Shown here: positions 3,062 through 51,973 of the stretch, piece after piece
Numbering within the stretch: the first letter of the stretch is position 1
Layout: each line of letters begins with the position of its first letter
Assembly (NCBI GenBank): GCA_031081585.1
Contig: JAVHLY010000009.1
Coordinates: 1-64,000, forward strand
Length of the DNA: 64,000 nucleotides
Reading direction: 5' to 3'
Source: Armatimonadota bacterium
GTDB lineage: Bacteria; Sysuimicrobiota; Sysuimicrobiia; Sysuimicrobiales; Humicultoraceae
Program-made: the position numbers and the translations under genes
The notes under the pieces: model-generated
What the model saw: only the letters and a program-made list of their open reading frames with translations
What the model was told of the DNA's origin: nothing
Database searches by the model: none

Positions 3062-3144
3062 AGGCCGGGTGCCGGGCGGTCCGATGCCGGACGGTGCGCG
3101 CCTTCCCGGAGCTTTCGAAGAATCTCGGCCGATGTGAGAAGGAG

Positions 3145-3176
3145 TTGACGCCGCGACGGAGAATACTGGCGATTAC
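3145..3176 (+). promoter_or_regulatory. Probable housekeeping promoter of the riboswitch-sigma transcript
   Basis: A near-consensus -35 box TTGACG lies at 3145-3150. The -10 box is ambiguous: GGCGAT (3168-3173) has the ideal 17-base spacing, GATTAC (3171-3176) is a better AT-rich match but 20 bases away. Transcription from here would start just before the riboswitch. Seen by eye only. Confidence 0.45.
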
Positions 3177-3190
3177 CAAGTTCATACGGG

Positions 3191-3276
3191 AAACCTCGAA
3201 ACGGCAAACCCGTCGCGAGACGGGGGCGCAAAGCCACGGGACCAGGCAGTCGGTCGGCCGGGCTACCGAAGGGTTG
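3191..3276 (+). promoter_or_regulatory. Cyclic-di-GMP class I (GEMM-I) riboswitch
   Basis: The leader contains the GEMM-I hallmarks in order. GGCAAACC (3203-3210) comes first. A stem CCCGTC/GACGGG follows, closed by the GNRA tetraloop GCGA (3209-3224). The conserved GCGCAAAGCC is at 3226-3235, and a second arm ends in GGGCTACCGAAGG. A basal P1 helix can form between AACCT (3192-3196) and GGGTT (3271-3275). The family binds c-di-GMP, and a minority of variants bind cGAMP; I cannot settle the specificity base without a structural alignment. It sits about 210 bases upstream of the sigma-factor start and is followed by a terminator-like palindrome. Confidence 0.9.
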
Positions 3277-3285
3277 GAACACGTC

Positions 3286-3317
3286 GAACCCCCTCGGTGG
3301 CGCCACCGAGGGGGTTC
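3286..3317 (+). terminator. Perfect 16-bp-arm palindrome, probable riboswitch expression platform
   Basis: Two 16-base arms are exactly complementary, apex GGCGCC, ten bases after the riboswitch P1 helix. The following bases (GGTCTTCATCATC) are pyrimidine-rich but lack a strong T-run. AACCC (3287-3291) in its left arm can also pair with GGGTT (3271-3275), the 3' strand of riboswitch P1. That gives a plausible mutually exclusive antiterminator. Confidence 0.7.
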
Positions 3318-3483
3318 GGTCTTCATCATCAGTCTTCATCGGGCGACCGTCGCACTCCTTCGTCGTACCCATGCCTGCCGCGCGGGAGGGCCTCTCGCGG
3401 CGAGGCCGCCAGAGCGGAGACGCATCCGGTCCGGGCGGGATGGCGTCGTGTCTCGCCGTCGGATCGTCGGGGAGGGACACGGC

Positions 3484-4335
3484 ATGGGCGTGCGTGGCAC
3501 GACCGTTCGACCGGGCGGAGCCCGGCAGACCGCTCGGGGGAGCCGGCCGGAGGCCGGCCGCGAGGGGGGCGAGGCCCCGCCGGCCTCAGAAGACGTCCTC
3601 GTCGCCCGCTACGCGGAGACGCGCGACCGGCGCCTGCGCGACGACATCGTGCAGGCCTGCACGCCCCTGGTGCGGCGCATCGTCAGCGACTTCGTCTTCT
3701 CCGGGGTGCCCACGGACGACCTGATGCAGGTCGGCTACATCGGCCTGCTCAACGCCATCGAGGTCTTCGACCCCGGCCGCGGCGTCAAGTTCGCCACCTA
3801 CGCCAGCCACCTCATCCGCGGCGAGATCCGCCACTACCTGCGCGACCACCGCGACACCATCCGCAAGCCCCGGTGGCTCGTCGGGCTGAACCAGCAGATC
3901 GACGAGGCGGTGGGGCGCTACCTCAGCACGGAGGGGCGGTACCCCGCCATGGACGAGCTCGCTTCGGAGCTCAACGTCGAGGAGCAGGACCTGCTGGAGC
4001 TGCTGAAGACCCGCGAGGTCCTGCGCACCATCTCGCTGGAGACCGACGAGGAGACGGGGGAGCTGCGCGTCGACCGCGACCGCGGGCGCACCCGGGGCGT
4101 GCCGGCCACCCCCATCCCCATCGAGGACCGGCTCACGCTCATGGGCGCCATCGAGAAGCTCAACCCGCTGCAGCGGCGCGTCCTCTACTACCTGTTCTTC
4201 ACCGACCTGACGCAGATGGAGGCGGCGAAGCGGATCGGCATCTCGCAGAAGCACGTCTCCCGCGTCCTCGCCAGTGCACTGCTCAAACTCCGCGGCCTCC
4301 TGGACGGGGCCGAGGACGGGAAGGAGTCCAGATAG
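3484..4335 (+). CDS. Alternative sigma factor, SigB/SigF/SigG type
   Basis: This is a 283-residue sigma-70 family protein with no region 1.1. Region 2 starts near residue 79 (DLMQVGYIGLLNAIEVFDP, then FATYASHLIRGEIRHYLRDH). Region 3 covers about residues 155-180. Region 4 spans about 220-270, with a helix-turn-helix QMEAAKRIGISQKHVSRVL. The GEIR-x-YLRDH block is typical of the SigB/SigF/SigG group of stress and development sigma factors. ATG 3484 has GGGGAGGG seven bases upstream. Its leader holds a c-di-GMP riboswitch and a terminator-like hairpin, and the roadblock gene follows after three bases. Three GTCTA-N14-GGGTAT sites in front of pilus operons match the promoter type of this sigma group. 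No RsbW-like anti-sigma factor is nearby. Confidence 0.88.
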   Translation: MGVRGTTVRPGGARQTARGSRPEAGREGGEAPPASEDVLVARYAETRDRRLRDDIVQACTPLVRRIVSDFVFSGVPTDDLMQVGYIGLLNAIEVFDPGRGVKFATYASHLIRGEIRHYLRDHRDTIRKPRWLVGLNQQIDEAVGRYLSTEGRYPAMDELASELNVEEQDLLELLKTREVLRTISLETDEETGELRVDRDRGRTRGVPATPIPIEDRLTLMGAIEKLNPLQRRVLYYLFFTDLTQMEAAKRIGISQKHVSRVLASALLKLRGLLDGAEDGKESR

Positions 4336-4338
4336 CCT

Positions 4339-4692
4339 ATGTCGCAGATTCGGGATGTCCTGACGGAGCTCGCCAAGGTGGAGGGTGTCCTGGCCGCCCT
4401 GGTGGTGGGCCGCGACGGCTTCGTCATCGAGGGGATCACCACCGAGGACGTCGACCTGGAGTCGGTGGGGGCCATCGTGGCCAGCAACATGGCCGCCGCC
4501 GAGACCATGGGCAACGAGATGGTCCGCGGCATGATCCGCGGGCTGCTGGTGGAGTTCGACGAGGGCCCGGTGGCGGTCGGCCCGGCCGGCCCCGACGCCC
4601 TGCTGGTCGTCGTGGGCAACGCCCGCTGCAACCTGGGCCGCATCCGCCTGGAGATGAAGCGCAACAGCCAGCTGGCCGCCGCGCTGGTCTAG
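4339..4692 (+). CDS. Roadblock/LC7 (MglB-like) protein
   Basis: The 117-residue product is a single roadblock/LC7 fold: an N-terminal helix LTELAKVEGVLAALVVGRDG, a central helix with GAIVASNMAAAETMGNEM, and strands GPVAVGPAGPDALLVVVG. In bacteria such proteins act as dimeric regulators of Ras-like GTPases; MglB is the GTPase-activating protein of MglA, which positions type IV pili. No MglA-like GTPase lies in the window. Only three bases separate it from the sigma gene, so it should share the riboswitch-controlled transcript. It may instead regulate the sigma factor; nothing in the sequence decides this. Confidence 0.85.
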   Translation: MSQIRDVLTELAKVEGVLAALVVGRDGFVIEGITTEDVDLESVGAIVASNMAAAETMGNEMVRGMIRGLLVEFDEGPVAVGPAGPDALLVVVGNARCNLGRIRLEMKRNSQLAAALV

Positions 4693-4740: not shown

Positions 4741-4766
4741 GTCTATCCCCGGGCCGGGCTGGGTAT
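4741..4766 (+). promoter_or_regulatory. SigB/SigF-type promoter upstream of minor-pilin operon 1
   Basis: GTCTAT (4741-4746) and GGGTAT (4761-4766) are separated by exactly 14 bases. The same architecture recurs at 18077 and 51816. It fits the G-N-N-T ... GGGTA(T/C) promoter type of SigB/SigF sigma factors. The predicted leader to ATG 4813 is about 40 bases. Confidence 0.7.
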
Positions 4767-4812: not shown

Positions 4813-5289
4813 ATGCGCACGCTCAAGGCCCCGGAGACGTCCGTCCGGTGGCGCCCCTGGAGCACCCGGGGGGCCAGCGCCCTGGAACTGGTCATTGTCG
4901 CCTCGGTGGCGGCCGCGTTGCTGGGGCTCAGCGTCCCGTCCCTGCGGGGGGCGGCGGCGCGGCAGCGCCTGGAGGGCTGGGCGCGGACCATGACGGCGGA
5001 CATCGGGGTGGCGCGGCAGGCGGCGATGCTGCGGCGGACCACTGCCGCGGTGACCATCACCGCCACCGGCTACCTGGTGGCGGCCGTGGACGGCGGGATC
5101 GTCCGTCAGGCAACCGTCCCCCAGGATGTCACCCTGAGCAGCACCTGCCCGGGGGGGATCTGCAGCTTCAACCGATTCGGCATCCCCATCACCACGGGGA
5201 CCGTGACGCTGCGCAGCAGCCTCACGTCCACCCGATACCTCATCACCATCGAAGAGGGGACGGGACGCGTCTCGTTCCGGGAACAGTGA
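4813..5289 (+). CDS. Minor pseudopilin, FimT/GspH type
   Basis: A 158-residue prepilin. The cleavage site is G before ASALELV, so the +5 glutamate is kept although the usual +1 aromatic residue is Ala. The hydrophobic helix follows (VIVASVAAALLGLSVP). The C-terminal half is a beta-rich domain with a Cys pair (CPGGIC). GGAGG lies upstream of ATG 4813. It is the first gene of a four-gene operon with overlapping stops and starts, matching the H-I-J-K order of type II secretion pseudopilins and the fimT-pilV-pilW-pilX order of T4P, where these proteins form the pilus priming tip complex. Confidence 0.85.
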   Translation: MRTLKAPETSVRWRPWSTRGASALELVIVASVAAALLGLSVPSLRGAAARQRLEGWARTMTADIGVARQAAMLRRTTAAVTITATGYLVAAVDGGIVRQATVPQDVTLSSTCPGGICSFNRFGIPITTGTVTLRSSLTSTRYLITIEEGTGRVSFREQ

Positions 5290-5723
5290 TGCCTCCGGCG
5301 GCGATCCGGCAGGACGAGGGCGGGTTCAGCCTGGTGGAGATCGTCGTGGCCACGGCCCTGGTGGGCGTGCTGGCGACGATCCTGCTGGGCGGTCTCCTCT
5401 TTGCCCTGAAAGAGGCCCGGCGGGGAAAGGTGCGGGCCGCCGCAGCGGCCTGGGTCCAGGCCGAGCTCGACTACCTCCGCATCCAGGGCTACTCCGTCCC
5501 GGCCGCCAGCCGGACGCTGACCCCGACGAGCGGGTACACCGCCTATGGTGACCTGGAGGAGCCACGGCTGCCGGAGGAGTTCGACCGGGCGGAGATCGTG
5601 ACCGAAGACCTCGTGTCCCCGCCGGTCCGCCGCCTCACCGTGCGGCTCTACGAGACGGCCTCCTCGCCCCCTTACACCATCCTGAGCACCTACGTCTCCA
5701 ACTTCACCTATGCGACCCCGTAG
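5289..5723 (+). CDS. Minor pilin, PilV/GspI type
   Basis: A 144-residue prepilin starting at an ATG that overlaps the preceding stop. The leader is short (13 residues) and the site is GG before FSLVEIVVATALVGVLATI, with the +5 glutamate present. The size and position between the FimT-like and PilW-like genes indicate the PilV/GspI role in the initiating minor-pilin complex at the inner membrane. The frame overlaps the next gene by 14 bases, so coupled translation is likely. Confidence 0.82.
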   Translation: MPPAAIRQDEGGFSLVEIVVATALVGVLATILLGGLLFALKEARRGKVRAAAAAWVQAELDYLRIQGYSVPAASRTLTPTSGYTAYGDLEEPRLPEEFDRAEIVTEDLVSPPVRRLTVRLYETASSPPYTILSTYVSNFTYATP

Positions 5724-6510
5724 GGCACGCCGCACAGGGCCGGTGAGCCGTCGTGATGCTGTCGCCTGGCGGGCCGCCTGCGTCGGAGCCGCTCCCGGGC
5801 GGGGCCGGCGCCCCCGGGCCCGCGCTGTCGGCGAGGGCGGCATGACCCTCCTGGAGGTGCTCGTCTCCATCGGGCTCATGGTCACGCTGGCGGCCTCCAT
5901 GACGACGCTGCTCGGTGCCGCCGTGCGCAGCAAGCAGGTGATCGGCCTGCGCACCATCGATGCCGAGACGGCCCGGACCAGCCTGGAGTGGATGTCGGAG
6001 CGGCTGCGGAATGCCGGTCTCAACCTCCGCCCCGCCGAGCAGACCGAGCCCCGATGTCAGGACATGGTCGTGGCCCTGGACGCGGCGCTCCGGCCCACGG
6101 CCAACGCCCTCCACGTGAGCGGCGAGATGCTGAACAGCAATACCATCGCCGGGGACGAGGTCATCACCCTGGGCTACCGGGTGGGCGACGACCCGGTGAC
6201 CGGCGTCCCGGTGATCATGGAGTACCGGCAGGACTGCACCCCGGGGGCCATTGCCACGCTCCGGCCCCTCTCCGATCCCCAGGTGCGGGTGACCCAGCTG
6301 GCCTTCGACTACTTCGCCCCCAACGGGCAGCGCATCACCGACCTGACGACCCGCTCCGAGATCCAGCGCATCCGCGTGGTGCGCATCACCCTGCAGACCG
6401 AGAGCTCCCAGGGCACCTCCGGCGTGCTGCGGCGCACCTGGAGCCGGGACGTCATGCTGCGGAACCCGGAGCCCAACCTGAACGACTGGAAGAATCCCAG
6501 CGAACCATGA
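5710..6510 (+). CDS. Minor pilin, PilW/GspJ type
   Basis: A 266-residue prepilin with a long basic leader (about 44 residues from ATG 5710; GTG 5743 is an alternative start). The cleavage site is GG before MTLLEVLVSIGLMVTLAASM. The middle region (TARTSLEWMSERLRNAGLNL) is the conserved PilW/GspJ helix and the remainder is beta-rich with several Cys residues. It overlaps both neighbours, as expected for a single minor-pilin operon. PilW-like proteins help prime pilus assembly and may remain at the tip. Confidence 0.85.
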   Translation: MRPRRARRTGPVSRRDAVAWRAACVGAAPGRGRRPRARAVGEGGMTLLEVLVSIGLMVTLAASMTTLLGAAVRSKQVIGLRTIDAETARTSLEWMSERLRNAGLNLRPAEQTEPRCQDMVVALDAALRPTANALHVSGEMLNSNTIAGDEVITLGYRVGDDPVTGVPVIMEYRQDCTPGAIATLRPLSDPQVRVTQLAFDYFAPNGQRITDLTTRSEIQRIRVVRITLQTESSQGTSGVLRRTWSRDVMLRNPEPNLNDWKNPSEP

Positions 6511-7862
6511 ACCCTTCCCACGGATGCACGGGCGGCGCAGGCGGACACCCCCTCCGGGCGGAGCGCGGGGCCATCATGCTCTACATCCTGCTGATCAGCG
6601 CGCTGGTGGGCACCGTCACCTCGGCGGTGATCCTCTTCATCATCGCGGACCTCACCGCTAGCGTGCGCCAGCTGCAGGTCGTCCGCGCCTTCAACGTCGC
6701 CGAGGGAGGGGTGCACTACGCGCTGGGGCGGCTGCAGGAGGCCAACGCGGAGAGCTACGCCGGCGAGACGCTGACCGTGAGCGACGGCGGGGTGGTGCTC
6801 GGGACCGCGACCATCACGGTACGGTGCCTGGACGGCAGCCTCCCCCCGTGCTCGGGGAGCGATGCGCGCTACCGCCGGGTGGCCGCCACCGGCGTGCTGC
6901 CGGCAGGAGGCCCCCGGCGCACGGTGGTTGCGGTGGTGGAGGGCTTCCCCACCGGGCTGACCGGCTACGCCATCTGCGCCCTGGGGAACGTGACCATCAG
7001 CCAGGGCATCACCGTCTACGGGGACGTGGCGGCCAACGGCAACATCTCGCTGCAGGGCCCGGAGAGCAACTACGGGAAGATCGACAACGACCCTCCGCCG
7101 CCCTACACCAACAACGGCTACTACACCGGCAGCGCCCGGGCCTCCGGCAGCATCACCTGCTCGGTGAGCTGCGCCGTGCAGGTGGCCGGCACCACCTCGC
7201 CCAACGCCCCCTCCAACCCCTGTCCCACCGACGTGGCGCTGCCCCCGTTCGCGCCCGGCACCGCCGACCGCACGGTGAATCCCCCCGGGTGGACCATGGA
7301 CGCCACCACCGGCTACGACTGGGATGAGATCACCCTCAACGCCGCGGGGGACGCCAACGGGTGCAGCACCGGCTTCACCGACCTGCGCATCCAGACCGGG
7401 GCGGCCGGGACGACCACGGTGGTGAACATCCGGAAGCTCACCCTGGGGCGCTGCGGGCGACTGGTGATCCTCGGGGACGGGCGGGTGGACCTGCGCATCA
7501 GCGAGGAGGCCACCACGGCCCTCTACGCCGGCCAGTACAGCCGCTTCGGGATGCTCAGCACCGACACCTGGAGCACCCCGGCCCCGGCCCCGGCCGGCCG
7601 GCTGATCGTCAGCATCCGCTCCTCCGCCGACCCGGCCGTGCACTTCGACCGGGCCAGCGTCATCGCCGGCTCCTTCAACGTCCCCAACGGGGTCTTCGAC
7701 ACCGACCGGGGTGCGGCGGGCTCCGGTGAGTTCTACGGGGCGGTGCTGGCCCACGACGTGGAGATCGACCGGGACTTCGTCTTCACCTACGACCCCACGG
7801 CCACGCTGGGCGCCTCGACCTTCGGGAACTTCAACCGCCTGCGCTCCTGGAAGGACCAGTAG
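6507..7862 (+). CDS. Minor pilin, PilX/GspK type with large beta-rich domain
   Basis: A 451-residue protein whose N-terminus (RGAIMLYILLISALVGTVTSAV, about residues 20-42) has the PilX/GspK form without the classical +5 glutamate. A helix FNVAEGGVHYALGRLQ follows, then about 330 residues of Gly/Thr-rich strands with scattered Cys (AICALGNVTISQGITVYG, GDVAANGNISLQG). These look like a parallel beta-helix or ComZ-like module. It shares less with the other three PilX proteins of this window than they share with one another. It ends the operon that begins at 4813; a convergent gene follows. Confidence 0.8.
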   Translation: MNPSHGCTGGAGGHPLRAERGAIMLYILLISALVGTVTSAVILFIIADLTASVRQLQVVRAFNVAEGGVHYALGRLQEANAESYAGETLTVSDGGVVLGTATITVRCLDGSLPPCSGSDARYRRVAATGVLPAGGPRRTVVAVVEGFPTGLTGYAICALGNVTISQGITVYGDVAANGNISLQGPESNYGKIDNDPPPPYTNNGYYTGSARASGSITCSVSCAVQVAGTTSPNAPSNPCPTDVALPPFAPGTADRTVNPPGWTMDATTGYDWDEITLNAAGDANGCSTGFTDLRIQTGAAGTTTVVNIRKLTLGRCGRLVILGDGRVDLRISEEATTALYAGQYSRFGMLSTDTWSTPAPAPAGRLIVSIRSSADPAVHFDRASVIAGSFNVPNGVFDTDRGAAGSGEFYGAVLAHDVEIDRDFVFTYDPTATLGASTFGNFNRLRSWKDQ

Positions 7863-13051: not shown

Positions 13052-14944
13052 ATGGCGGACCTCAACATCACCGTGCGGGACCGCTTCGGCCAGAGCGCGT
13101 CCCAGCGCGTGGTGGTCGAGGTCCACGGACGACGCCCGGCCGGCCGGGGGCGGGCGGAAGCCGCCGCAGGGGCGCCCCCGGCCCCGGCGGTCCCGGCCGA
13201 CCGCCCGGCGCCGACCCCCTATACTAGGGGCACAGCCCAGAGCGGGGGAGGCCGGGTGCAGCAGACCCGCCGGCGCGTCTTCATCGGCCAGGTCCTCGTG
13301 GAAGCGGGCCTCATCACGCCCAGCCAGCTCGACCGGGCCCTGGAGGAGCAGCGGCGCTCCGGCGAGCGGCTGGGCAAGGTCATCATTGACCTGGGCTGGG
13401 CCAGCCCCTACGACATCGCCCAGGCGCTCTCGCGCCAGCTGGGGCTGGAGTTCGTCAGCCTGGCCGACACCCTCCTCGACGAGCAGACCCTCAGCCGCAT
13501 CCCCGAGCACCTGGCCCGCCGCCACAGCGTCATCCCCGTCCGGGAGGAGAACGGCACGCTGGTCCTGGGGATGGTCGACCCCCTGGACATCGTCGCCATC
13601 GACGACCTGCGCCGCTTCACCGGGCTGGACATCCAGCCGGCGGTCATCACGCCGGAGGACTTCCAGCGGGCTATCACCCAGTACCCGGCGCTGGGGGGCG
13701 CGGTGGACCAGATGCTGGCCGAGATCCGGCCGGCCGAGGGCGAGCCCGAGGAGACCGCCGACCGGCTGCGGGCGGTGGCCGAGGACGCCCCCATCGTCCG
13801 CCTGGCCAACCTCATCATCGTCCAGGCCATCCGCCAGGGGGCCAGCGACATCCACGTGGAGCCGCAGGAGACCCGGGTGCGCATCCGCTACCGCATCGAC
13901 GGCGCCCTCTACCCGGTGATGACGCCGCCCAAGCACATCCAGGCGGCGCTGGTCTCCCGCTTCAAGATCATGGCGAACATGAACATCGCCGAGCGCCGCC
14001 TGCCCCAGGACGGGCGCATCGAGATGAAGGTCGACAACAAGGACATCGACCTGCGCGTCTCCACCATCCCCACGGTATGGGGGGAGAAGGTGGTCATGCG
14101 CATCCTGGACAAGAGCGGGGCCTTCGTCGGCATCGAGAAGCTGGGGCTGCTCCCCGAGGACCACCGCCGGTTCGAGGCCATCATCAGCAAGCCCTACGGC
14201 ATCATTCTCATCACCGGTCCCACCGGCAGCGGCAAGACCACGACGCTCTATGCCATCCTCAACCGTCTCAACCGCACCGAGGTGAACATCACGACCATCG
14301 AGGATCCGGTGGAGTACCAGCTGCCGGGCATCGCCCAGGTGCAGATCAACCCCAAGGCGGGGCTGACCTTCGCCAGCGGCCTGCGCGCCTTCCTGCGCCA
14401 GGACCCCGACATCATCATGGTGGGCGAGATCCGCGACGAGGAGACCGCCCGCATCGCCATCCACGCGGCGCTGACGGGGCACCTGGTGCTCTCCACCATC
14501 CACACCAACGACGCCCCCGGCGCGCTGCCGCGCCTCATCGACATGGGGATCGAGCCCTTCCTGGTCTCCTCCTCGGTGGTGGGGGTGATCGCCCAGCGGC
14601 TGGTGCGCGTACTCTGCCAGCGCTGCAAGGCGCCCTACGACCCCAAGCCCGAGCTGGTCCGCCGCGTCGGGCTCGACCCCGACGGCGGGGCGACCTTCTA
14701 CAAGCCGGTGGGGTGCGAGTTCTGCAACCACATCGGGTACAAGGGGCGCACGGGCATCTTCGAGATCATGCCCGTGGACGAGAGCATCAAGGGGCTGCTG
14801 GTGAAACACGCCCCCAGCAGCCAGATCAAGGAGGTGGCCGTGGCCGCCGGGATGCGTACGCTGCAGCAGGACGGCGTGGCCAAGGTCCTGAGCGGCATCA
14901 CCTCCCTGGAGGAGGTCCTCCGGGTGGTCTTCGTGGAGGACTAG
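13052..14944 (+). CDS. pilB: Type IV pilus extension ATPase PilB (copy 2)
   Basis: A second GspE/PilB ATPase, 630 residues from ATG 13052, which has GGGAG close upstream. Residues 1-28 are the end of an Ig-like domain and 29-68 a Pro/Ala linker; the PilB homology (RRRVFIGQVLVEAGLITPSQL, MshEN domain) begins only at residue ~74. A GTG at 13256 preceded by GGGGGAGG, with a TATACT box upstream, is therefore a credible true start. The core has Walker A GPTGSGKTTT, VTTIEDPVEYQ-type Asp box, Walker B IIMVGEIRD, STIHTNDA and a zinc site (CQRC, CEFC). pilT and pilC follow, so this copy heads the classical BTC motor set. Confidence 0.92.
   Translation: MADLNITVRDRFGQSASQRVVVEVHGRRPAGRGRAEAAAGAPPAPAVPADRPAPTPYTRGTAQSGGGRVQQTRRRVFIGQVLVEAGLITPSQLDRALEEQRRSGERLGKVIIDLGWASPYDIAQALSRQLGLEFVSLADTLLDEQTLSRIPEHLARRHSVIPVREENGTLVLGMVDPLDIVAIDDLRRFTGLDIQPAVITPEDFQRAITQYPALGGAVDQMLAEIRPAEGEPEETADRLRAVAEDAPIVRLANLIIVQAIRQGASDIHVEPQETRVRIRYRIDGALYPVMTPPKHIQAALVSRFKIMANMNIAERRLPQDGRIEMKVDNKDIDLRVSTIPTVWGEKVVMRILDKSGAFVGIEKLGLLPEDHRRFEAIISKPYGIILITGPTGSGKTTTLYAILNRLNRTEVNITTIEDPVEYQLPGIAQVQINPKAGLTFASGLRAFLRQDPDIIMVGEIRDEETARIAIHAALTGHLVLSTIHTNDAPGALPRLIDMGIEPFLVSSSVVGVIAQRLVRVLCQRCKAPYDPKPELVRRVGLDPDGGATFYKPVGCEFCNHIGYKGRTGIFEIMPVDESIKGLLVKHAPSSQIKEVAVAAGMRTLQQDGVAKVLSGITSLEEVLRVVFVED
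13220..13225 (+). promoter_or_regulatory. TATACT -10-like box inside the annotated 5' end of pilB copy 2
   Basis: TATACT is a near-consensus -10 hexamer and stands out in this GC-rich DNA. No good -35 box lies 17 bases upstream (CCGACC). A transcript from here would start near 13232 and reach GGGGGAGG and GTG 13256 within about 25 bases. Confidence 0.4.
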
Positions 14945-15043: not shown

Positions 15044-16240
15044 ATGCACATCGACGACCTGCTCCGCGAGGTGGTCGAGGCCAACGGCTCCGACCTGCAC
15101 CTGACCGCCGGCATCAAGCCGACGATGCGGGTGTGGGGCAAGCTGCGGCCGATGGAGCACTACGAGGTGCTGACGCCGGAGGACACCTTCCAGCTCGGCT
15201 ACAGCATGCTCAACACCTTCCAGAAGCAGAAGTTCGAGAAGTTCTGGGAGCTGGACCTCTCCTACGGCGTCCCGGGGCTGGGGCGCTTCCGGGTGAACAT
15301 CTACCGGCAGCGGGGGGCGGTGGGCATCGCCGCCCGCGTCATCCCCATGACCATCCCCAGTGTCGAGCAGCTCAACCTGCCGCCCATCCTCAAGGAGCTG
15401 ACCCGCAAGCCGCGGGGGTTGGTGCTGGTGACCGGGCCCACCGGGCACGGCAAGTCCACCACGCTGGCGGCCATGATCGACTTCATCAACTCCGAGCGGG
15501 CCGTCCACATCGTCACGGTGGAGGACCCCATCGAGTACCTGCACACGCACAAGAAGTCCATCGTCAACCAGCGCGAGCTGGGCTTCGACACCCAGTCCTT
15601 TCCCAACGCCCTGCGGGCGGTCCTGCGCGAGGACCCCAACGTCGTCCTCATCGGCGAGATGCGCGACCTGGAGACCATCAGCGCCGCGCTGACCATCGCC
15701 GAGACCGGGCATTTGGTCTTCGCCACGCTGCACACGGCCACCGCCGGGCAGTCCATCGACCGCATCATCGACGTCTTCCCGCCCTACCAGCAGCAGCAGA
15801 TCCGCATCCAGCTGGCCATGGTCATCGAGGCGGTCATCTCCCAGCAGCTCCTGCCCAACGCCCGCTACAACCCTGCCGGCGGCGGGCGGCGCACCCCGGC
15901 CCGCTCCCGCCTGGGGAGTGCGTCGGGCAGCGCGTGGCCCTCGCTGGAGGAGATCGGCCGCGTGCCCGCCGTGGAGGTGATGATCGCCACCCCGGCCATC
16001 CGGAACCTCATCCGCGAGGCCAAGGCCCACCAGATCGAGACGGCCATCCAGACGGGGAGCCAGTACGGGATGCAGACCATGGACCAGTCGCTGCGGGACC
16101 TCTACCTGCGCAAGCTCATCACCTACGAGGACGCCATGGGGCGGGCCATCCACCCCGAGGAGCTGCGCAAGATGATCGCCGAGGCCGGCGGCGACGTCCC
16201 CGAGTACACGATCCGCGCCTCGAGCCCGGCCCGGCGGTAG
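15044..16240 (+). CDS. pilT: Type IV pilus retraction ATPase PilT
   Basis: A 398-residue PilT with the N-terminal PAS-like region (GSDLHLTAGIKPTMRVWG) and Walker A GPTGHGKSTT (about 129-138; His replaces the usual Ser/Gly). It also has the Asp box VTVEDPIEY, Walker B VVLIGEMRD, a His-box TLHTATA and the PilT-specific AIRNLIREAKAHQIETAIQTG region. Between QQLLP and RVPAVEVM (about residues 270-305) it carries some 30 extra Gly/Arg/Ser-rich residues absent from typical PilT. It disassembles pili at the inner membrane, giving twitching and DNA uptake. It follows pilB copy 2 after 99 bases. Confidence 0.93.
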   Translation: MHIDDLLREVVEANGSDLHLTAGIKPTMRVWGKLRPMEHYEVLTPEDTFQLGYSMLNTFQKQKFEKFWELDLSYGVPGLGRFRVNIYRQRGAVGIAARVIPMTIPSVEQLNLPPILKELTRKPRGLVLVTGPTGHGKSTTLAAMIDFINSERAVHIVTVEDPIEYLHTHKKSIVNQRELGFDTQSFPNALRAVLREDPNVVLIGEMRDLETISAALTIAETGHLVFATLHTATAGQSIDRIIDVFPPYQQQQIRIQLAMVIEAVISQQLLPNARYNPAGGGRRTPARSRLGSASGSAWPSLEEIGRVPAVEVMIATPAIRNLIREAKAHQIETAIQTGSQYGMQTMDQSLRDLYLRKLITYEDAMGRAIHPEELRKMIAEAGGDVPEYTIRASSPARR

Positions 16241-16809: not shown

Positions 16810-18033
16810 ATGGCCATCTACCGCTACAGCGCCAAGGATCCCAGCGGGCGCGTGATCGCCGGCACCATCGAGGCGGACTCGGACGCCGCCGTCGTCGAGC
16901 GCCTGCGCGACATGGGGTTCTTCATCACGAACCTGGAGAAGCAGGCCCCGCGGCGCGAGCTGGGGGACCTCCTGCAGGGGCTCTTCGGGGTCGGGCTGAA
17001 GGACCTGGCCATCTTCAGCCGCCAGTTCTCCACCATGGTGAACTCCGGCCTCTCGCTGGTGCGCACGCTGTCCATCCTCGAGCAGCAGACGGCCAACAAG
17101 AAACTCCGGGAGATCACCGCCCAGGTGCGCCTCGACGTCGAGTCGGGCAAGCCGCTCTCGGAGGCCCTGGGGCGTCACCCCCGGGTCTTCAGCAGCCTCT
17201 ACGTGAACATGGTGAAGGCGGGCGAGACGGGCGGGGTGCTGGACGAGGTCCTGAACCGCATCGCCACCTTCCTGGAGAAGGAGCAGGAGCTGCGCAGCAA
17301 GATCCGTGCGGCCATGGTCTACCCGGCGCTGCTGACCGCGGCGGCGCTGGGCGGGTTGATGTTCATGACCATCGTCATCCTGCCCCAGTTCCAGAACCTG
17401 TTCAAGGAGCTGGGCGGGGACGCCAGCCTGCCCCTGCCCACGCAGGTCGCCATGGCGGTGAGCGTCACCCTGCGCACCTACTGGTACGTCTTCCTCGGGG
17501 CCATCGCCGCCGCGGTCTACGGCCTGCGCCGCTACCTGCGCACGCCGGCGGGCCGGGCCCGCTACGACCGCCTGAAGCTCAGCTTGCCGGTGCTGGGCGA
17601 CCTGAACCGCAAGATCGTCGTCTCCCGCTTCAGCCGGACGCTGGGGACGCTCATCGCCAGCGGCGTGCCGATCATGCAGGCCCTGGAGGTGGTGGCCAAG
17701 GCCATCGACAACACCGTGATCGGCGAGGCGGTAGACGCGGTGCGCAACAGCATCCGGGAGGGGCAGTCCATCGCCATCCCCCTGCAGTTCAGCGGCGTCT
17801 TCCCGCCCATGGTCGTGCAGATGACCAAGGTGGGTGAGGAGACCGGCGCCCTGGAGAGCATGCTGCAGAAGGTGGCCGACTTCTACGACGTGGAGATCGA
17901 GACGACGGTGCAGAGCCTGACGTCGATGCTGGAGCCCATGCTCATCATCTTCATGGGGGTGGTCGTGGGGGCCATGGTCATCTCGCTCTACCTGCCGATC
18001 TTCTCGCTGGCCACGGGCGGGGGGATCAAGTAG
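16810..18033 (+). CDS. pilC: Type IV pilus inner-membrane platform protein PilC
   Basis: A 407-residue GspF/PilC protein with two repeats of the T2SSF domain. The first (about 70-195) starts FSRQFSTMVNSGLSLVRTL and the second (about 272-395) starts FSRTLGTLIASGVPIMQALE. Three membrane helices lie near 170-190, 220-240 and at the C-terminus (MLIIFMGVVVGAMVISLYLPIF). The family forms the platform on which PilB and PilT turn, directing pilin insertion. ATG 16810 has GAGGTGACCTC upstream. It ends the pilB-pilT-pilC set and precedes the pilA promoter. Confidence 0.93.
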   Translation: MAIYRYSAKDPSGRVIAGTIEADSDAAVVERLRDMGFFITNLEKQAPRRELGDLLQGLFGVGLKDLAIFSRQFSTMVNSGLSLVRTLSILEQQTANKKLREITAQVRLDVESGKPLSEALGRHPRVFSSLYVNMVKAGETGGVLDEVLNRIATFLEKEQELRSKIRAAMVYPALLTAAALGGLMFMTIVILPQFQNLFKELGGDASLPLPTQVAMAVSVTLRTYWYVFLGAIAAAVYGLRRYLRTPAGRARYDRLKLSLPVLGDLNRKIVVSRFSRTLGTLIASGVPIMQALEVVAKAIDNTVIGEAVDAVRNSIREGQSIAIPLQFSGVFPPMVVQMTKVGEETGALESMLQKVADFYDVEIETTVQSLTSMLEPMLIIFMGVVVGAMVISLYLPIFSLATGGGIK

Positions 18034-18076: not shown

Positions 18077-18102
18077 GTCTATCCCTCTCCCATCCTGGGT
18101 AT
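18077..18102 (+). promoter_or_regulatory. SigB/SigF-type promoter upstream of pilA
   Basis: GTCTAT (18077-18082) and GGGTAT (18097-18102) are 14 bases apart. The match to the 4741 site extends further: both read GTCTATCCC, nine bases, CTGGGTATA. Transcription would start near 18109, giving a leader of about 170 bases before pilA. Confidence 0.72.
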
Positions 18103-18108
18103 AGGGGC

Positions 18109-18276
18109 ATGGTGGGCTGCAGGATCCCCCACCGACAGTCTCGAGAGGGGTGGGAGGTGATGGCCGGGCCAGGAGGACCTGGCCGCAGTGGAGGGTAGGA
18201 CCCTGTGGGCGCGCCCCGGAGGGAGCCGGCCGCAGGGAGAGGGGACTCACGAAAGCACGAAGGGAGGTCGGTATCG
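18109..18276 (+). other. Structured 5' leader of pilA
   Basis: The ~168-base leader can fold a seven-base-pair hairpin (GGCCAGG-AGGA-CCTGGCC, 18167-18184) and a short stem GGGT-AGG-ACCC further on, and ends with GGGAGGT before the start. It does not match the GEMM-I core seen at 3191. A cis-acting RNA or translational control element is possible. Confidence 0.4.
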
Positions 18277-18702
18277 TTGCTTCGGTTCTTCTGGCAGCAG
18301 AAGCGGCGGGCCGGCACTGAGGGCGGTTTCACCCTCATCGAGCTGGTCGTCGTGCTCGCCATCCTGGGCATCCTGCTTGCGCTCGCCGTGCCCCGCTACC
18401 TCGGCGCCCGCAAGCGCGCGTACAAGGCTGAGGCGGACAACATCCTCCAAGAGGCCAAGACCCTCTCCTGGGCCTACTACCAGGAGTACAGCCAGTTCCC
18501 CTCGGCCATCGGCGACATCAGCTTAGTCATGCCGGGCGGCACCGCCTGGACGACCCCCACGATCGGCGCGGGCGGCGGGTCAGCCAGCAGCATCCGGTGG
18601 GACATGTCCGGCTTGTCGGGAGGCGCTCCAGTCGAGCCCGGCGACGTGTGTTCCGTCACCCTGAACAACGACGGTTCATCCACTCAGGGCTGCAACTTCT
18701 AA
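18277..18702 (+). CDS. pilA: Major type IV pilin PilA
   Basis: A 141-residue type IVa-like prepilin. The site is GG before FTLIELVVVLAILGILLALAV, followed by PRYLGARKRAYKAEADN. Two Cys residues near the C-terminus (VCSVTLNNDGSSTQGCNF) form the usual pilin D-loop. I place the start at TTG 18277 because GGGAGGT precedes it by eight bases; the only other option is GTG 18205 with a longer leader. It lies after pilC, behind its own SigB-type promoter, and ahead of a terminator hairpin, which fits high-level separate expression. A clear homologue is fused to the transglutaminase at 27512-30211. Confidence 0.9.
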   Translation: MLRFFWQQKRRAGTEGGFTLIELVVVLAILGILLALAVPRYLGARKRAYKAEADNILQEAKTLSWAYYQEYSQFPSAIGDISLVMPGGTAWTTPTIGAGGGSASSIRWDMSGLSGGAPVEPGDVCSVTLNNDGSSTQGCNF

Positions 18703-46538: not shown

Positions 46539-47624
46539 ATGGGCCTGTTCAAGTTCTCCTCCGGATCCCTGGTCGGGCTGGACATCGGCAGCGACCGGTT
46601 GAAGGTCGTGGAGCTGGTCCGGGCCGGCCGCACCTACCGGCTGGCCCGCATGGCCACGCTCCCCTCGCCCGCCGGCGCCTTCCGGGACGGGGTGCCGGTC
46701 GCCCCCGACGAGGTGGGGGCGCAGGTGCGGGCGCTCTTCGACAAGGCCGGCATCCGCACCGACCGCGTCGTCGTGGGCGCCGGCGGCCAGAACGTCACGG
46801 TGCGCGAGGTGCGCGTCCCGCCCATGACCGCCCAGGAGCTGACCGCGGCGGTCCGCTACGAGGCGGAGCGCTACCTCCCTTACAACATCCAGGACGTCTA
46901 CATGGACTACCAGGTGCTGGGGGAGTCCACCGAAGACGGGCGCAAGATGCTGGACGTCGTCGTGGTGGCCACGCGCCAGGACGTGGTCCAGCGCATCATC
47001 GAGACGGTGGAGGCGGCCCGCCTCACCCCCATCGTGGTGGACGTCGAGTCCTTCGCCGTGCTGCGGGCCCTGCGCCCCGCCCAGGCGCCGGAGCGCACCG
47101 TGGTCTTCATCGACCTGGGTGCCGAGGCCAGCGACATCGTCATTACCGAGGGGGACCGCCTGCGGCTGACGCGCAACATCCCCATCGGCGGCACTTCGCT
47201 CGTGCACGCCGTCCAGGAGGCCATGGGCCTGGACGAGGGGGCGGCCCGGCAGCTGCTGGAGGAGCGCGGGGAGATCCTGGACGAGAACGCCATCCCCGAC
47301 GACCTGACCGTGCAGCGCATCCACGACGCCATCGCCCCGCAGGTGGGCGACCTGATCACCGAGGTGCGGCGCTCCCTGGACTACTACCAGACGCGCACGC
47401 GCGCCGCCGTGGTCTCGCAGGTGGTGCTCACCGGCGGGCTGGCCCGGCTGCGCAACCTCGACCGCGTGCTGGCCGCCGAACTGGGCCTGCCGGTCGAGGT
47501 CGGCAACCCCTTCGCCCACCTGGAGGTCAACGGCGCGGCCTTCGGCCCCGACGTCCTGGCCTCCACCGGCCCCGTGATGTCGGTGGCCGTCGGCCTCGCG
47601 CTCAGAGGGGGAGAGGAGCGATGA
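46539..47624 (+). CDS. pilM: Type IV pilus inner-membrane assembly protein PilM
   Basis: A 361-residue actin/FtsA-fold protein. Nucleotide-binding motifs are VGLDIGSDRLKVVEL near the start and VVFIDLGAEASDIVI in the middle. The pilus-specific LPYNIQDVYMDYQVLG segment is present, and the C-terminal VVLTGGLARLRNLD. PilM forms a cytoplasmic ring bound to the PilN N-terminus and couples the motor to the alignment complex. Stop and start overlap with pilN (ATGA), typical of the pilMNO operon. Confidence 0.93.
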   Translation: MGLFKFSSGSLVGLDIGSDRLKVVELVRAGRTYRLARMATLPSPAGAFRDGVPVAPDEVGAQVRALFDKAGIRTDRVVVGAGGQNVTVREVRVPPMTAQELTAAVRYEAERYLPYNIQDVYMDYQVLGESTEDGRKMLDVVVVATRQDVVQRIIETVEAARLTPIVVDVESFAVLRALRPAQAPERTVVFIDLGAEASDIVITEGDRLRLTRNIPIGGTSLVHAVQEAMGLDEGAARQLLEERGEILDENAIPDDLTVQRIHDAIAPQVGDLITEVRRSLDYYQTRTRAAVVSQVVLTGGLARLRNLDRVLAAELGLPVEVGNPFAHLEVNGAAFGPDVLASTGPVMSVAVGLALRGGEER

Positions 47625-48181
47625 TCCGGATCAACCTCCTGCCGCGGCGGCCGCGGCGCCAGGTGCCCGGCGGGGCGCTCCTGGCGGTCGCCCTGCCCGT
47701 GGCGGTGCTCGTCGTGCTCGTCGTCGTCTACCTGAGCCTCTCCGCCCGCCTCGCCGCCCTGCAGGGGGAGCTGCGCCGGGCCGACGCGCGCATCGCCGAG
47801 CTGCAACCGCAGGTGGCGGAGGTCCAGGCGCTCAAGCGGCAGATCGAGGAGGCCCGGCGCAAGGAGGACCTGCTGGCGCAGCTGCTGGCCAGCCAGCTCC
47901 CCGCCTCCTCCATCCTGGCCAACATCCGGGTGCTCATCCCCCGGGACGTCTGGATGACTACCCTGAACGTGCCCGACACCGGGTCCTTCACCATCGACGG
48001 GATGGCCATGAGCTTCGTGGCGGTGGCGCGGCTCATGGACAACCTGGAGTCCAGCCGCCTCTTCGACGGCCTCGACCTGAGCTCCGCCGAGCGTGAGCGG
48101 GTGGGCGAGGTCGAGGTCGTCCGCTTCCAGGTGACCGGACGCCTGGTCAAGCCCGGCGCCACCCCGGAGAGCAGCCGATGA
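47621..48181 (+). CDS. pilN: Type IV pilus assembly protein PilN
   Basis: A 186-residue bitopic membrane protein. The cytoplasmic INLLPRR motif (residues 4-10) binds PilM. One membrane helix follows (LLAVALPVAVLVVLVVVYL), then a coiled coil and a ferredoxin-like periplasmic domain. PilN pairs with PilO to align the inner-membrane motor with the secretin. It overlaps both neighbours by four bases. Confidence 0.93.
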   Translation: MIRINLLPRRPRRQVPGGALLAVALPVAVLVVLVVVYLSLSARLAALQGELRRADARIAELQPQVAEVQALKRQIEEARRKEDLLAQLLASQLPASSILANIRVLIPRDVWMTTLNVPDTGSFTIDGMAMSFVAVARLMDNLESSRLFDGLDLSSAERERVGEVEVVRFQVTGRLVKPGATPESSR

Positions 48182-48816
48182 AGACCAGCCCACGCGAGCG
48201 ACTCCTCGTCAGCGTGCTCGTCACGCTGGCGCTGGCGGCCGGGTTCTACTTCTTCGTCTACACGGGGAAGCAGGACGAGATCCGCCGCCTCAGCGCGCAG
48301 CTCACCCAGAAGCAGCAGCAGGTGGCGGAGATGGAGCAGCTGGCCGCCCAGCGCGAGGACCTGGAGCGGGAGTACCGGGCCCTGCAGGACCGCATCCAGG
48401 CCATCGAGGCCAAGCTGCCCCCGGCGCGGGAGATCCCCACGCTGCTGCGTCAGATGCAGGCGGTGGCCAGTGAGGTCGGGGTGAAGATGAACCTCATCCG
48501 CCCCGGCGCCCTGGAGGCCCCCACCGGCCAGGCCGGCGCCGGGCCGCGACAGGGGCAGCCGCCCGCGGCCGCCCCTGCCCCGGCCTCCGGGCAGGGGCAG
48601 CAGGCCCAGCCGGCCGCCCCGCCCTACCAGCAGTTCCGGCTGGAGCTCTCCTTCGAGGGGACCTACGACACGCTGCTCAGCATGCTGCGCCGGCTGGAGA
48701 ACTTCCCCCGCTTCATCGCCATGACCCAGCTCGCCATCTCGCCCCAGCAGCCGCTGCCCCGCCTGCGACTGAACGTCGTCTCCAACACCTTCGTCCTGCC
48801 CGAGGCGCGGCCGTAG
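48178..48816 (+). CDS. pilO: Type IV pilus assembly protein PilO
   Basis: A 212-residue bitopic protein: membrane helix LLVSVLVTLALAAGFYFFVY, a coiled coil (QLTQKQQQVAEMEQLAAQRE), and a periplasmic domain interrupted by a Gln/Pro/Ala-rich insert (about 120-150), ending in FEGTYDTLLSMLRRLENFPRF. It heterodimerises with PilN. Unusually, no pilP or pilQ gene follows directly; those lie 3.2 kb downstream behind their own promoter, with a diguanylate cyclase and pilD in between. Confidence 0.92.
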   Translation: MKTSPRERLLVSVLVTLALAAGFYFFVYTGKQDEIRRLSAQLTQKQQQVAEMEQLAAQREDLEREYRALQDRIQAIEAKLPPAREIPTLLRQMQAVASEVGVKMNLIRPGALEAPTGQAGAGPRQGQPPAAAPAPASGQGQQAQPAAPPYQQFRLELSFEGTYDTLLSMLRRLENFPRFIAMTQLAISPQQPLPRLRLNVVSNTFVLPEARP

Positions 48817-48843: not shown

Positions 48844-48873
48844 ACGGCGCCGGGTGGGTCCGCCCGGCGCCGT
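48844..48873 (+). terminator. Terminator hairpin after pilO
   Basis: ACGGCGCCGGG (48844-48854) and its exact complement (48863-48873) make an eleven-base-pair stem with an eight-base loop, followed by TCTGTC. It separates pilMNO from the diguanylate cyclase. Confidence 0.65.
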
Positions 48874-49027
48874 TCTGTCAGTCCGCGCTCCGGGCGGGTG
48901 CCCGGCCGCCGGTTCAGGGAGCGGTCGTCCCGCCGTCGGCAGGCCAGCGCGCGGCCCGCGATCCGTCGCCCGCGGCCTCCTGCCGGGCGGTCTCAGCCGG
49001 CTCGGGCCCGGGCATAGGGAAATGGTT

Positions 49028-50020
49028 ATGGAAGCGGTGCGCCTGCACGCCACCCTGAACTGGCTGATCGACACGGCCGCCGAGGTCGCTCCCGGGCAGG
49101 ACCTGGAGGAGACGCTGGAGCGCTACCTGGACCGCCTCCTCCAGTGGGTAGACGCGGAGCAGGGGTCCATCCTCCTGCGGGACGGGGATGGTCTCGCCCT
49201 CGTGGCCGCCCGGGGCCTCAGCGCCGAGGTCACGCCGGGCATGCGCATCGGCCTGCAGGAGGGTCCGGCGGGCGAGGTGGCGGCGGAGGGCACCCCGCGC
49301 CTCCTCTACGGCGAGCTGCCGTCGCCGCGGGCGACCCCACGGCCCCGCTCGGCGCTGATCATCCCCATCCGCAGCCGGGAGCGCGTCATCGGCGTGCTCA
49401 ACCTGGGGAAGCTCTCGGGCGCCCGCGACTTCACCCCCGAAGACCTCCAGGTCATCTCGGTGGTGGCCGCCCAGTTGGCCTGGCTGCTGGCCAACTTCGA
49501 GCTCATGTCCAAGATGTGGCGGCTGGCCATCACCGACGAGCTCACCGGGCTGTACAACCGGCGCTACTTCTTCCTGCGGCTGCGTGAGGAGATGCAGCGG
49601 GCGTTGCGCTACGACAAGCCGCTGTCGCTGGTGATGCTGGACCTGGACGGGTTCAAGGAGCTCAACCGCAGCCACGGGCTGCTGGTGGCGGACGAGGTCC
49701 TGGCCAAGGTGGCGGGGGTGATCCAGCGCAACCTGCGGGCCGTGGACGTCGCCGCCCGCTACGGGGGCGACGAGGTGGTGGTGATCCTGCCGGAGACGCC
49801 GGCCGGCCCGGCGGCGTCGATCATCGCCCGGCTGCAGCGGGCCGTGGCCGACGAGACCTTCGTGGGGCGGAACGGCATGCCCGTCCACCTGAGCGTCTGC
49901 GCCGGGATCGCCCAGTTCCCGGCGGACGGGGTGGACCCGGAGGACCTCATCCGCAAAGCCGACGCCGCCCTCATCGAGGCGAAGCGCGCAGGCAGCGGAC
50001 GCCTCCTGTTGGCGGAGTAA
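49028..50020 (+). CDS. GAF-GGDEF diguanylate cyclase
   Basis: A 330-residue soluble protein. A GAF domain (about 20-155, EQGSILLRDGDGLALVAARG through IPIRSRERVIGVLNLG) is followed by a GGDEF domain (about 165-325) with DELTGLYNRRYF and DLDGFKELN. The signature reads YGGDEV, with Val in place of Phe; the catalytic Gly-Gly-Asp-Glu is intact. An RAVD sequence five residues before it is the canonical RxxD inhibitory site. It should make c-di-GMP, with product feedback. ATG 49028 fits AGGGA upstream; ATG 49022 is possible. Position right after pilMNO and presence of a c-di-GMP riboswitch in this window tie it to pilus control. Confidence 0.88.
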   Translation: MEAVRLHATLNWLIDTAAEVAPGQDLEETLERYLDRLLQWVDAEQGSILLRDGDGLALVAARGLSAEVTPGMRIGLQEGPAGEVAAEGTPRLLYGELPSPRATPRPRSALIIPIRSRERVIGVLNLGKLSGARDFTPEDLQVISVVAAQLAWLLANFELMSKMWRLAITDELTGLYNRRYFFLRLREEMQRALRYDKPLSLVMLDLDGFKELNRSHGLLVADEVLAKVAGVIQRNLRAVDVAARYGGDEVVVILPETPAGPAASIIARLQRAVADETFVGRNGMPVHLSVCAGIAQFPADGVDPEDLIRKADAALIEAKRAGSGRLLLAE

Positions 50021-50752: not shown

Positions 50753-51013
50753 GGGTGAGCCTCCTCTGCGTCGGGCAGCCCGGCGCGCGCGGGCTGCGGA
50801 TCGAGCGGTCCGTCGTCACAGGGCACGAGTCCGGGGCCCGTACCCTGCACCATCGATGTATGTGCCCCGTTTCGTGTCGGCTGAGGCGGTTTCCTGCCCC
50901 TCCGGCTGGCGGAGGCCCCGGTGCGGGAGGGGAGGCCCGGGCTCGGGAGGGGCGCGGCGACACCCGCAAACCGGCCCGGGCGGGCCGATGGGAAAGGAGG
51001 ACCGGAAGGACGG

Positions 51014-51760
51014 ATGACGGCCGTGCAGGGGCTGGTGGCGGCGGTGGTGGGAGCCATGGTGGGCTCCTTCGCCAACGTGGTGATCTATCGGGTGCCGCGC
51101 CGGGAGTCGGTGGTGGCCCCGCGCTCGCGCTGTCCGGCCTGCGGCCACCCCATCGCCGCGCGGGACAACGTGCCGCTCCTCAGCTTCCTCCTGCTGCGGG
51201 GCCGCTGCCGCCACTGCGGGACGGCCATCTCGTGGCGCTACCCGCTGGTGGAGGCGCTGACGGCCCTGCTCTTCGTGGCGGTCTGGCGGGCCTTCGGCCC
51301 CACCTGGGAGGGCCTGCGCGCCGCCCTCTTCGTGCTGATCCTGGTGGTCGTCGTGTTCGTCGACCTGGACCACCGGCTGATCCCCAACGCCGTGACCTAC
51401 CCGGGGATGGCCGCGGGCCTGCTGCTGGCGCTGCCCGACGGCCCCGCCGCCCTGGCGGAGCGGGTCCTGGCCGGCGTGGGGGCCGGAGCGTTCTTCCTGG
51501 CCGTCGCTGTGGTCAGCCGGGGCGGGATGGGCGGCGGTGACGTCAAGCTGGCCGCCGTGATGGGCCTCTTCCTGGGATGGCCGACCATCGCCGCTGCCCT
51601 CTTCCTCAGCTTCCTCGCCGGGGGGCTCGTGGGCATCGCCCTGATCCTGCTGGGACTACGCCGGCGGAAGGACGCCATCCCCTTCGGCCCCTTCCTCGCG
51701 CTCGGCAGCCTGGCAGGGCTGTTCTGGGGGGCCTCCCTCGTCCGGTGGTACTTCGGGTGA
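51014..51760 (+). CDS. pilD: Prepilin peptidase/N-methyltransferase PilD
   Basis: A 248-residue A24 aspartic peptidase. The N-terminal domain has GSFANVVIYRVPRRES and a zinc-type tetracysteine motif (Cys 40, 43, 65, 68), characteristic of bifunctional enzymes that also methylate the new N-terminus. Catalytic aspartates are in VDLDHRLIPN (about 117) and GGGDVKLAAV (about 175). It cleaves prepilins at the cytoplasmic face after Gly. The window has at least 13 putative substrates, including the pilin fused to the transglutaminase. ATG 51014 is supported by the AGGAGG/GGAAGGA stretch upstream. Confidence 0.93.
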   Translation: MTAVQGLVAAVVGAMVGSFANVVIYRVPRRESVVAPRSRCPACGHPIAARDNVPLLSFLLLRGRCRHCGTAISWRYPLVEALTALLFVAVWRAFGPTWEGLRAALFVLILVVVVFVDLDHRLIPNAVTYPGMAAGLLLALPDGPAALAERVLAGVGAGAFFLAVAVVSRGGMGGGDVKLAAVMGLFLGWPTIAAALFLSFLAGGLVGIALILLGLRRRKDAIPFGPFLALGSLAGLFWGASLVRWYFG

Positions 51761-51815: not shown

Positions 51816-51841
51816 GCGTCTAGACCGAATTACTTTTGGGT
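51816..51841 (+). promoter_or_regulatory. SigB/SigF-type promoter upstream of pilP-pilQ
   Basis: GTCTAG (51816-51821) and GGGTAT (51836-51841) are separated by exactly 14 bases, here AT-rich. This is the third copy of the element at 4741 and 18077. The predicted leader to ATG 51974 is about 125 bases. Confidence 0.72.
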
Positions 51842-51973
51842 ATCGCGGGAACGAGTACGGCCACGGACCGCCACGGCTGTCGGTGGCCGGGTGATCCCGG
51901 TCACGAAGAGCCGGAGACGCCCCGAGCCCCCTGCCGGGGTCACGACCACTCGGTCGACAGAGGAGCCTGCCTG

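Follow-up and report, generated by a model that had tools for sequence, protein, structure and literature searches.

Riboswitches usually tune a single operon. In C. difficile, sigD is placed under the Cd1 riboswitch as part of the flgB flagellar operon (PMC6366702, PMC9262584). Cd1 is an experimentally characterised OFF switch in which the aptamer and the terminator do not overlap (PMC9262584). A second route from c-di-GMP to a sigma factor is the control of WhiG through an anti-sigma, as cited in PMC7288161. The class I aptamer, pili as its targets, sigD under Cd1 and the anti-sigma control of WhiG are therefore known elements. The DNA analysed here (the window) is a 64-kb stretch (64,000 nucleotides) on contig 9 of a 2.88-Mb draft genome that is 96% complete and belongs to CSP1-3/Sysuimicrobiota, a phylum that was uncultivated as of its 2024 description (PMC11604079). 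The window points to a circuit in which c-di-GMP controls type IV pili in two tiers; as a whole model it is judged probable. In the first tier, a dedicated sigma factor of the SigB/SigF type would be made from an mRNA whose leader carries a c-di-GMP-I riboswitch. In the second tier, this sigma would read the motif GTCTA-N15-GGG(C/T)A at the major-pilin, minor-pilin and secretin operons, and would also use promoters directly upstream of many other c-di-GMP riboswitches to close a feed-forward loop. The features of the sigma locus are as follows.

3194–3271, plus strand: class I c-di-GMP (GEMM-I) riboswitch aptamer (RF03167, RF01051, bases at the ligand positions)
3260–3275, plus strand: switching strand GGGCUACCGAAGGGUU, made of the aptamer 3' strand and the P1 3' strand, which pairs with 3287–3304
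3285–3318, plus strand: perfect palindrome of 34 nt, read as a terminator hairpin of 15 bp with a 4-nt loop (fold, conservation)
3484–4335, plus strand: SigB/SigF-group sigma factor of 283 aa, encoded at the head of the pilus locus (TIGR02980, PF04542, PF04545)
4339–4692, plus strand: Roadblock/LC7 protein, MglB-like (PF03259, E = 1.6e-17)

The single Rfam match within the 64-kb window is to c-di-GMP-I-GGC (RF03167) at 3194–3271 on the plus strand, with a score of 65.3 bits that passes the cut-off of 59 (E = 3.7e-13). The RF01051 covariance model scores 63.2 bits at 3193–3270 (plus strand), well above its gathering cut-off of 35. The ligand-contact bases G20, A47 and C92 are all canonical in the window aptamer, where the numbering follows PMC3764141 and A47-A48-A49 are the AAA of CGCAAAGCC. 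The RF01051 score and these three bases confirm the GEMM-I riboswitch that the earlier note had placed in the leader and had proposed to check with this model. These results identify the RNA as a class I c-di-GMP aptamer, with c-di-GMP as its predicted ligand.

The higher RF03167 score raises the alternative that the aptamer is a c-di-GMP-I-GGC variant or a cGAMP-type class that senses another cyclic dinucleotide. The covariance alignment shows that the RF03167 consensus has G at the A47 position, and we infer that "GGC" in its name denotes G20/G47/C92. The window copy has A at this position, so the RF03167 subclass was rejected for it despite the score. The bases G/A/C occupy positions 20/47/92 in 30 of 31 sigma leaders. 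The exception is the sigma riboswitch of genome G008 (G008:C11:6465-6542, locus L088), which carries G20A, a change known from cGAMP-sensing GEMM aptamers (PMC7288161) and a point in favour of another ligand; G20 is retained in its three congeners. With G20, A47 and C92 in the window copy, a different ligand for the window aptamer is very improbable, and c-di-GMP is retained as the predicted ligand. Elsewhere in the window genome (G000), a riboswitch ahead of a surface-protein gene (G000:C4, L015 9618–9693, minus strand) has C at position 20, and its ligand is uncertain.

The sigma gene starts at ATG 3484 and is preceded by GGGAGGG at 3470. Its best NCBIfam match is the SigB/SigF/SigG model TIGR02980 (E = 2e-51), with a score of 174.9 bits that lies below the model cut-off of 234. 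The protein is called a divergent SigB/SigF/SigG relative rather than a TIGR02980 member because of this sub-cut-off score. The roadblock gene that follows is frequently kept adjacent to the sigma gene in other genomes. The earlier description of a SigB/SigF-group sigma gene behind the riboswitch and a roadblock protein after it was thus borne out by TIGR02980 as the best, albeit sub-cut-off, match and by PF03259, and its coordinates were right. An RsbW/SpoIIAB-type anti-sigma partner is found beside a paralogue of the sigma gene only and not beside the riboswitch-linked sigma, and a homology search of the riboswitch-sigma loci with the genome's RsbW-like protein found no homologue.

Downstream of the roadblock gene the window encodes the following members of the type IV pilus cluster.

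4813–5289, plus strand: GspH-type pseudopilin (PF12019)
5289–5723, plus strand: PilV-type pseudopilin (PF07963)
5710–6510, plus strand: PilW-like pseudopilin, by gene order and the N-terminal motif MTLLEVLVSIGLM; no Pfam match
6507–7862, plus strand: PilX-like protein, last of the minor-pilin operon, by position and an N-terminal hydrophobic segment
7916–10321, minus strand: PilB-type ATPase with MshEN (PF00437, PF05157)
13052–14944, plus strand: second PilB-type ATPase with MshEN (PF00437, PF05157)
15044–16240, plus strand: PilT-type ATPase (PF00437)
16810–18033, plus strand: PilC (PF00482, two stretches)
18271–18702, plus strand: major type IV pilin PilA (PF07963, GFTLIELVVVLAILGILLALAVPRY), start codon uncertain
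46539–48816, plus strand: PilM, PilN and PilO (PF11104, PF05137, PF04350)
48854–50020, plus strand: candidate GAF-GGDEF diguanylate cyclase (PF00990, E = 1.7e-42)
50921–51760, plus strand: prepilin peptidase PilD (PF06750, PF01478)
52638–54308, plus strand: AMIN-secretin PilQ (PF00263, PF11741)

MshEN is a c-di-GMP-binding domain type. The GAF-GGDEF gene at 48854–50020 sits inside the pilus cluster, between pilO and the prepilin peptidase gene. The genome has six GGDEF hits, one of them inside the pilus cluster, and it can therefore probably make c-di-GMP. Because the sigma locus heads a type IV pilus cluster, the predicted output is a classic GEMM-I function after all. The earlier note had set the sigma target apart from the mostly pilin, flagellar, secretion or enzyme genes known for GEMM-I; it had seen neither this pilus output nor the complementarity of the putative terminator arm to the aptamer 3' strand, nor the other c-di-GMP riboswitches behind the same type of promoter, all described below.

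A search of named genomes with the sigma sequence found two close relatives only, with a 70–72% identical sigma and both labelled Armatimonadetes bacterium, one of them CSP1-3; the remainder were distant SigF-type sigmas, mostly from Collinsella. The phylum was compared across 43 genomes with a sigma orthologue search and riboswitch searches, the riboswitch sets being the matches listed and not the complete set. Sigma orthologues are present in most of these genomes. Among the matches listed, 28 of the 43 genomes have an aptamer on the same strand as the sigma orthologue and no more than about 600 nt upstream of it. The 28 span 14 genera and four families: ten genomes in f1, the window's family, ten in f3, seven in f4 and one in f6. 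For the window genome, with seven riboswitches and 600 nt behind each over both strands of 2.88 Mb, the chance of such a pairing comes to about 7e-4. The search for this pairing in related genomes, which the earlier note had proposed as a check, finds it conserved across genera and families. The typical setting of the pair is a type IV pilus locus, and in many genomes the sigma and roadblock genes lie together with those for pseudopilins and PilB (MshEN). In genomes G022, G023 and G028 the sigma gene belongs to a pilT-like operon and lies 1.4–2.5 kb from the riboswitch that heads this operon. Family f5 keeps the sigma gene and has no riboswitch near it. Two sigma paralogues stand in a row 3' of the riboswitch at the sigma loci of G025, G026 and G027 (L104-L106), and tandem or clustered c-di-GMP-I riboswitches occur at G018:C4:11974-12163, G012:C4:10603-10874 and G027:C57:3992-5316.

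Between the aptamer and the sigma gene lies the palindrome, which had been given as 32 bases; it is indeed perfect, and its length is 34 nt (3285–3318). A palindrome of this length is expected by chance about 4e-6 times in 64 kb (64000/4^17). The hairpin has a folding energy of -31.5 kcal/mol, is retained in G003-G005 and is followed by a weak U tract, GUCUUCAUC, at 3319–3327. A simple consensus terminator/promoter scan of the leader, which applies strict rules to a sequence with a poor U tract, gave no match. The 5' arm of the palindrome (3287–3304) doubles as an antiterminator strand: it pairs with 3260–3275 at -23.8 kcal/mol (z = -3.7 against dinucleotide shuffles). The P1 partner AACC starts at 3192. 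Minimum free energy folds of the nascent RNA form the antiterminator when the RNA ends at 3301–3310 and the terminator when it ends at 3320. The aptamer and the terminator do not overlap and can coexist, and the antiterminator competes with the aptamer. This arrangement explains the palindrome, since a single arm has to be complementary to its hairpin partner and to the aptamer 3' strand alike. The palindrome reads as the terminator of a putative OFF switch. Without ligand, 3260–3275 would pair with the palindrome arm 3287–3304 as an antiterminator, and transcription would continue as far as the sigma gene. Binding of c-di-GMP would make the aptamer hold its own 3' strand, the palindrome would fold as a terminator and sigma synthesis would drop.

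A comparison of the leaders shows a shared three-strand design. Strand 2 is the aptamer 3' end GGGCUnCCGAAnGGnn, which can lie inside the aptamer/P1 or pair with a downstream strand 3. In f1, strand 3 forms the 5' arm of the terminator hairpin, and in several f3 leaders it forms the 5' arm of a hairpin that covers the ribosome-binding site; in this sister family the same strand exchange would hide or free the ribosome-binding site. Complementarity was scored for a 16-nt strand 2 against the next 60 nt, with dinucleotide shuffles as the control (p<0.05). The six-base 5' extension of strand 2 in this test was chosen after the nascent-RNA fold of the window leader, so that the window is a post hoc case and the other leaders alone provide an independent test: all 10 of 10 f1 leaders beat the shuffles (mean z = -3.2), as did 8 of 10 in f3 (mean z = -2.8). 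None of 10 f4 leaders was significant, nor was f6, and an alternative local hairpin in the f4 leaders was not above chance; f4 has a different kind of platform. A shorter strand 2 (12 nt from C92) gave no signal in any family (mean z = 0.1).

The opposite polarity would be an ON switch in which c-di-GMP raises sigma and pilus expression, as happens with the class II riboswitch at pilA1 in C. difficile. It would agree with the promotion of type IV pilus genes by c-di-GMP in C. difficile (PMC6366702), with the preference of RNAfold alone for the terminator in the full-length leader, and with f4 expression platforms that give no clear sign. It would not account for an aptamer and terminator that do not overlap, or for a terminator arm whose alternative partner is the 3' strand of the aptamer itself. 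On these grounds the bound ligand should release the terminator, and an ON switch is considered unlikely. The OFF direction, with ligand-induced termination, is the direction suggested by the pairing. Upstream of the aptamer, within 3130–3170, the element AGGAGTTG-N11-(T/G)AGAA is common to G000 and G003-G005. It fits neither a SigA promoter nor the GTCTA motif and is possibly a promoter of another sigma.

In B. subtilis, SigB promoters follow the consensus GTTTAA-N12-14-GGG(A/T)A(A/T) (PMC8346170), and the phylum motif GTCTA-N15-GGG(C/T)A resembles it. SigB-type promoters were found at the likely targets as GTCTAN-N14-GGG(C/T)AT, compared with the expected GTTT..N14..GGGTAT. Three lie in the window.

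4741–4766, plus strand: predicted sigma-dependent promoter of the minor-pilin operon, GTCTAT-N14-GGGTAT, exact match
18077–18102, plus strand: predicted sigma-dependent promoter of the major pilin, GTCTAT-N14-GGGTAT, exact match
51818–51843, plus strand: predicted sigma-dependent promoter of the secretin operon, GTCTAG-N14-GGGTAT, one mismatch

A whole-genome search for GTCTAT-N14-GGGTAT returned two exact sites only, 4741 and 18077, both in the window; among the sites with one mismatch are those of the pilQ operon (51818) and of a further pseudopilin operon (C22:29877). Across f1, GTCTA-N15-GGGTAT occurs at 17 sites and the reversed pattern at 2. The motif with at most one mismatch lies upstream of the best pilA match per genome in 16 of 30 genomes (0.03 expected). 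The short motif has 22 exact sites in the window genome versus 12 for the reversed pattern, which means that many single sites are background. In f4 the motif is weak, and at the riboswitches and pilins of f3 it is all but missing. Family f3 has both the sigma and the riboswitch, yet no recognisable motif, and a search upstream of its riboswitches and pilins found no replacement. Autoregulation of the window sigma by its own motif is not claimed; a clear site of this kind is confined to G002 (an exact match) and G001 (with one mismatch). The motif defines a predicted pilus regulon of pilin, minor-pilin and secretin operons that this sigma would recognise, and this predicted regulon is new.

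These promoters bear on a simpler account, in which the RNA is an ordinary pilus-operon riboswitch and the sigma gene a mere passenger with another or a small local job. Pili are classic GEMM-I targets, the sigma gene lies within the pilus cluster, and in two f4 genera, g14 and g16, the sigma gene is part of a pilT-like operon headed by the riboswitch. A passenger would not be expected directly 3' of the riboswitch in 28 genomes (among the matches listed), and the pseudopilin operon has its own predicted SigB-type promoter at 4741. The same motif occurs at pilA and pilQ, far from the riboswitch, and is strongly enriched upstream of unlinked riboswitches. A passenger role is quite unlikely on these grounds, and a sigma dedicated to the pilus regulon is the reading carried forward.

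The enrichment was measured at 60 further riboswitch loci (among the matches listed) and the six others of the window genome. The 28 f1 riboswitches tested are those among the matches listed plus the window genome's own. Exact GTCTA-N15/16-GGG(C/T)A occurs within 120 nt upstream of 11 of these 28 (0.02 expected), and the motif with at most one mismatch upstream of 18 of the 28 (0.27 expected), again among the matches listed. The f1 sites are mostly 40–90 nt ahead of the aptamer. The window genome has the motif (at most one mismatch) upstream of all six of its other riboswitches, and two of its riboswitch operons are pseudopilin operons. A dyad search that assumed no motif returned GTCT-N16-GGGC and GTCT-N17-GGCA as the top pairs, each in 19 of 37 f1 sequences; the best shuffled pair reached 5 of 37. 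In other families (among the matches listed), the counts are 7 of 19 for f4 (0.16 expected) and 0 of 12 for f3. From these positions, mRNAs with a c-di-GMP riboswitch of their own are predicted to be transcribed by the sigma, and c-di-GMP probably has two points of action: the sigma itself and many of the mRNAs that the sigma targets. Whether a riboswitch-controlled sigma that transcribes mRNAs with the same riboswitch, and hence a feed-forward loop, is a design of the whole phylum is evenly balanced.

A different sigma could serve these promoters, either the RsbW-linked paralogue on contig C20 or the second pilus-type paralogue of f1, which would leave the regulon outside riboswitch control. 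The C20 paralogue of the window genome is SigB-like and adjoins a gene for an RsbW-like, anti-sigma-like HATPase, and SigB homologues are capable of promoter cross-recognition (PMC8346170). The motif occurs in the f1 genomes G001-G010 and in f5, which lack orthologues of C20 (defined by at least 50% identity). Six f3 genomes have such an orthologue, and there the motif is nearly absent. The second pilus-type sigma (49–58% identical) occurs in much of f1 and could share the motif; it is absent from the window genome, which still has the motif at all its other riboswitches. The motif thus tracks the riboswitch-controlled sigma, and its distribution fits this sigma and not the anti-sigma-linked paralogue. 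Service by another sigma is accordingly quite improbable, a little below the passenger role. The region upstream of the RsbW-linked SigB paralogue contains a 6S RNA (L119 2030–2222, 86.4 bits) at a distance of a few kb.

Against the two-tier model count the poor U tract, the lack of significance of the strand-exchange test in f4 and f6 and of its shorter version in all families, the scarcity of the motif in f4 and f3, the background of single motif sites, the second sigma in much of f1, and five f5 genomes, which have the motif at pilA without a riboswitch near the sigma gene. In f5 (L112-L117) the motif is at pilA in 5 of 7 genomes, and the sigma riboswitch has apparently been lost or replaced. 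The idea that a switch on a dedicated sigma extends c-di-GMP control to a whole regulon draws support from the canonical ligand-contact bases of the aptamer, the conserved pairing, the pilus promoter motif and the distribution of that motif, all read from genome sequences.

If the model is right, a riboswitch on a dedicated sigma turns c-di-GMP into a genome-wide on/off decision, and the repetition of the switch in the target mRNAs of that sigma makes a noise-filtering feed-forward loop. The predicted physiological output is repression of type IV pili by c-di-GMP, opposite to C. difficile. The analysis also gives a first regulatory map for pili in Sysuimicrobiota and a searchable promoter code. 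A literature search in which subscription papers were thinly covered found no riboswitch directly on a dedicated sigma gene, and no sigma whose target mRNAs carry the same riboswitch.

The window sigma shares its sequence group and predicted promoter type with the SigB/SigF stress and sporulation sigmas (TIGR02980); unlike them, it scores below the model cut-off, lies in a pilus locus and has a riboswitch in place of the usual anti-sigma partner. In Bdellovibrio, the FliA regulon and the merRNA similarly bring an alternative sigma and a c-di-GMP riboswitch RNA into one lifestyle programme, but the merRNA stands as an RNA of its own, for which the paper's table marks no FliA promoter, and the sigma gene is not described there as riboswitch-controlled (PMC3627812). 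As in WhiG control, at least as it is cited in PMC7288161, c-di-GMP would limit a sigma factor of the same broad group; there the limit is a protein anti-sigma, and here it would be an RNA switch on sigma synthesis, with no RsbW-like homologue found alongside. Another close parallel is Cd1, with which the window leader shares a class I c-di-GMP aptamer, an antiterminator/terminator exchange and an alternative sigma that would relay the signal, the OFF direction being a prediction here. In the Cd1 system sigD lies within a long flagellar operon, whereas in the window a SigB/SigF-type sigma stands directly behind the switch at the head of a pilus locus, and its predicted target mRNAs, unlike those of the Cd1 system, include many with a c-di-GMP riboswitch of their own.
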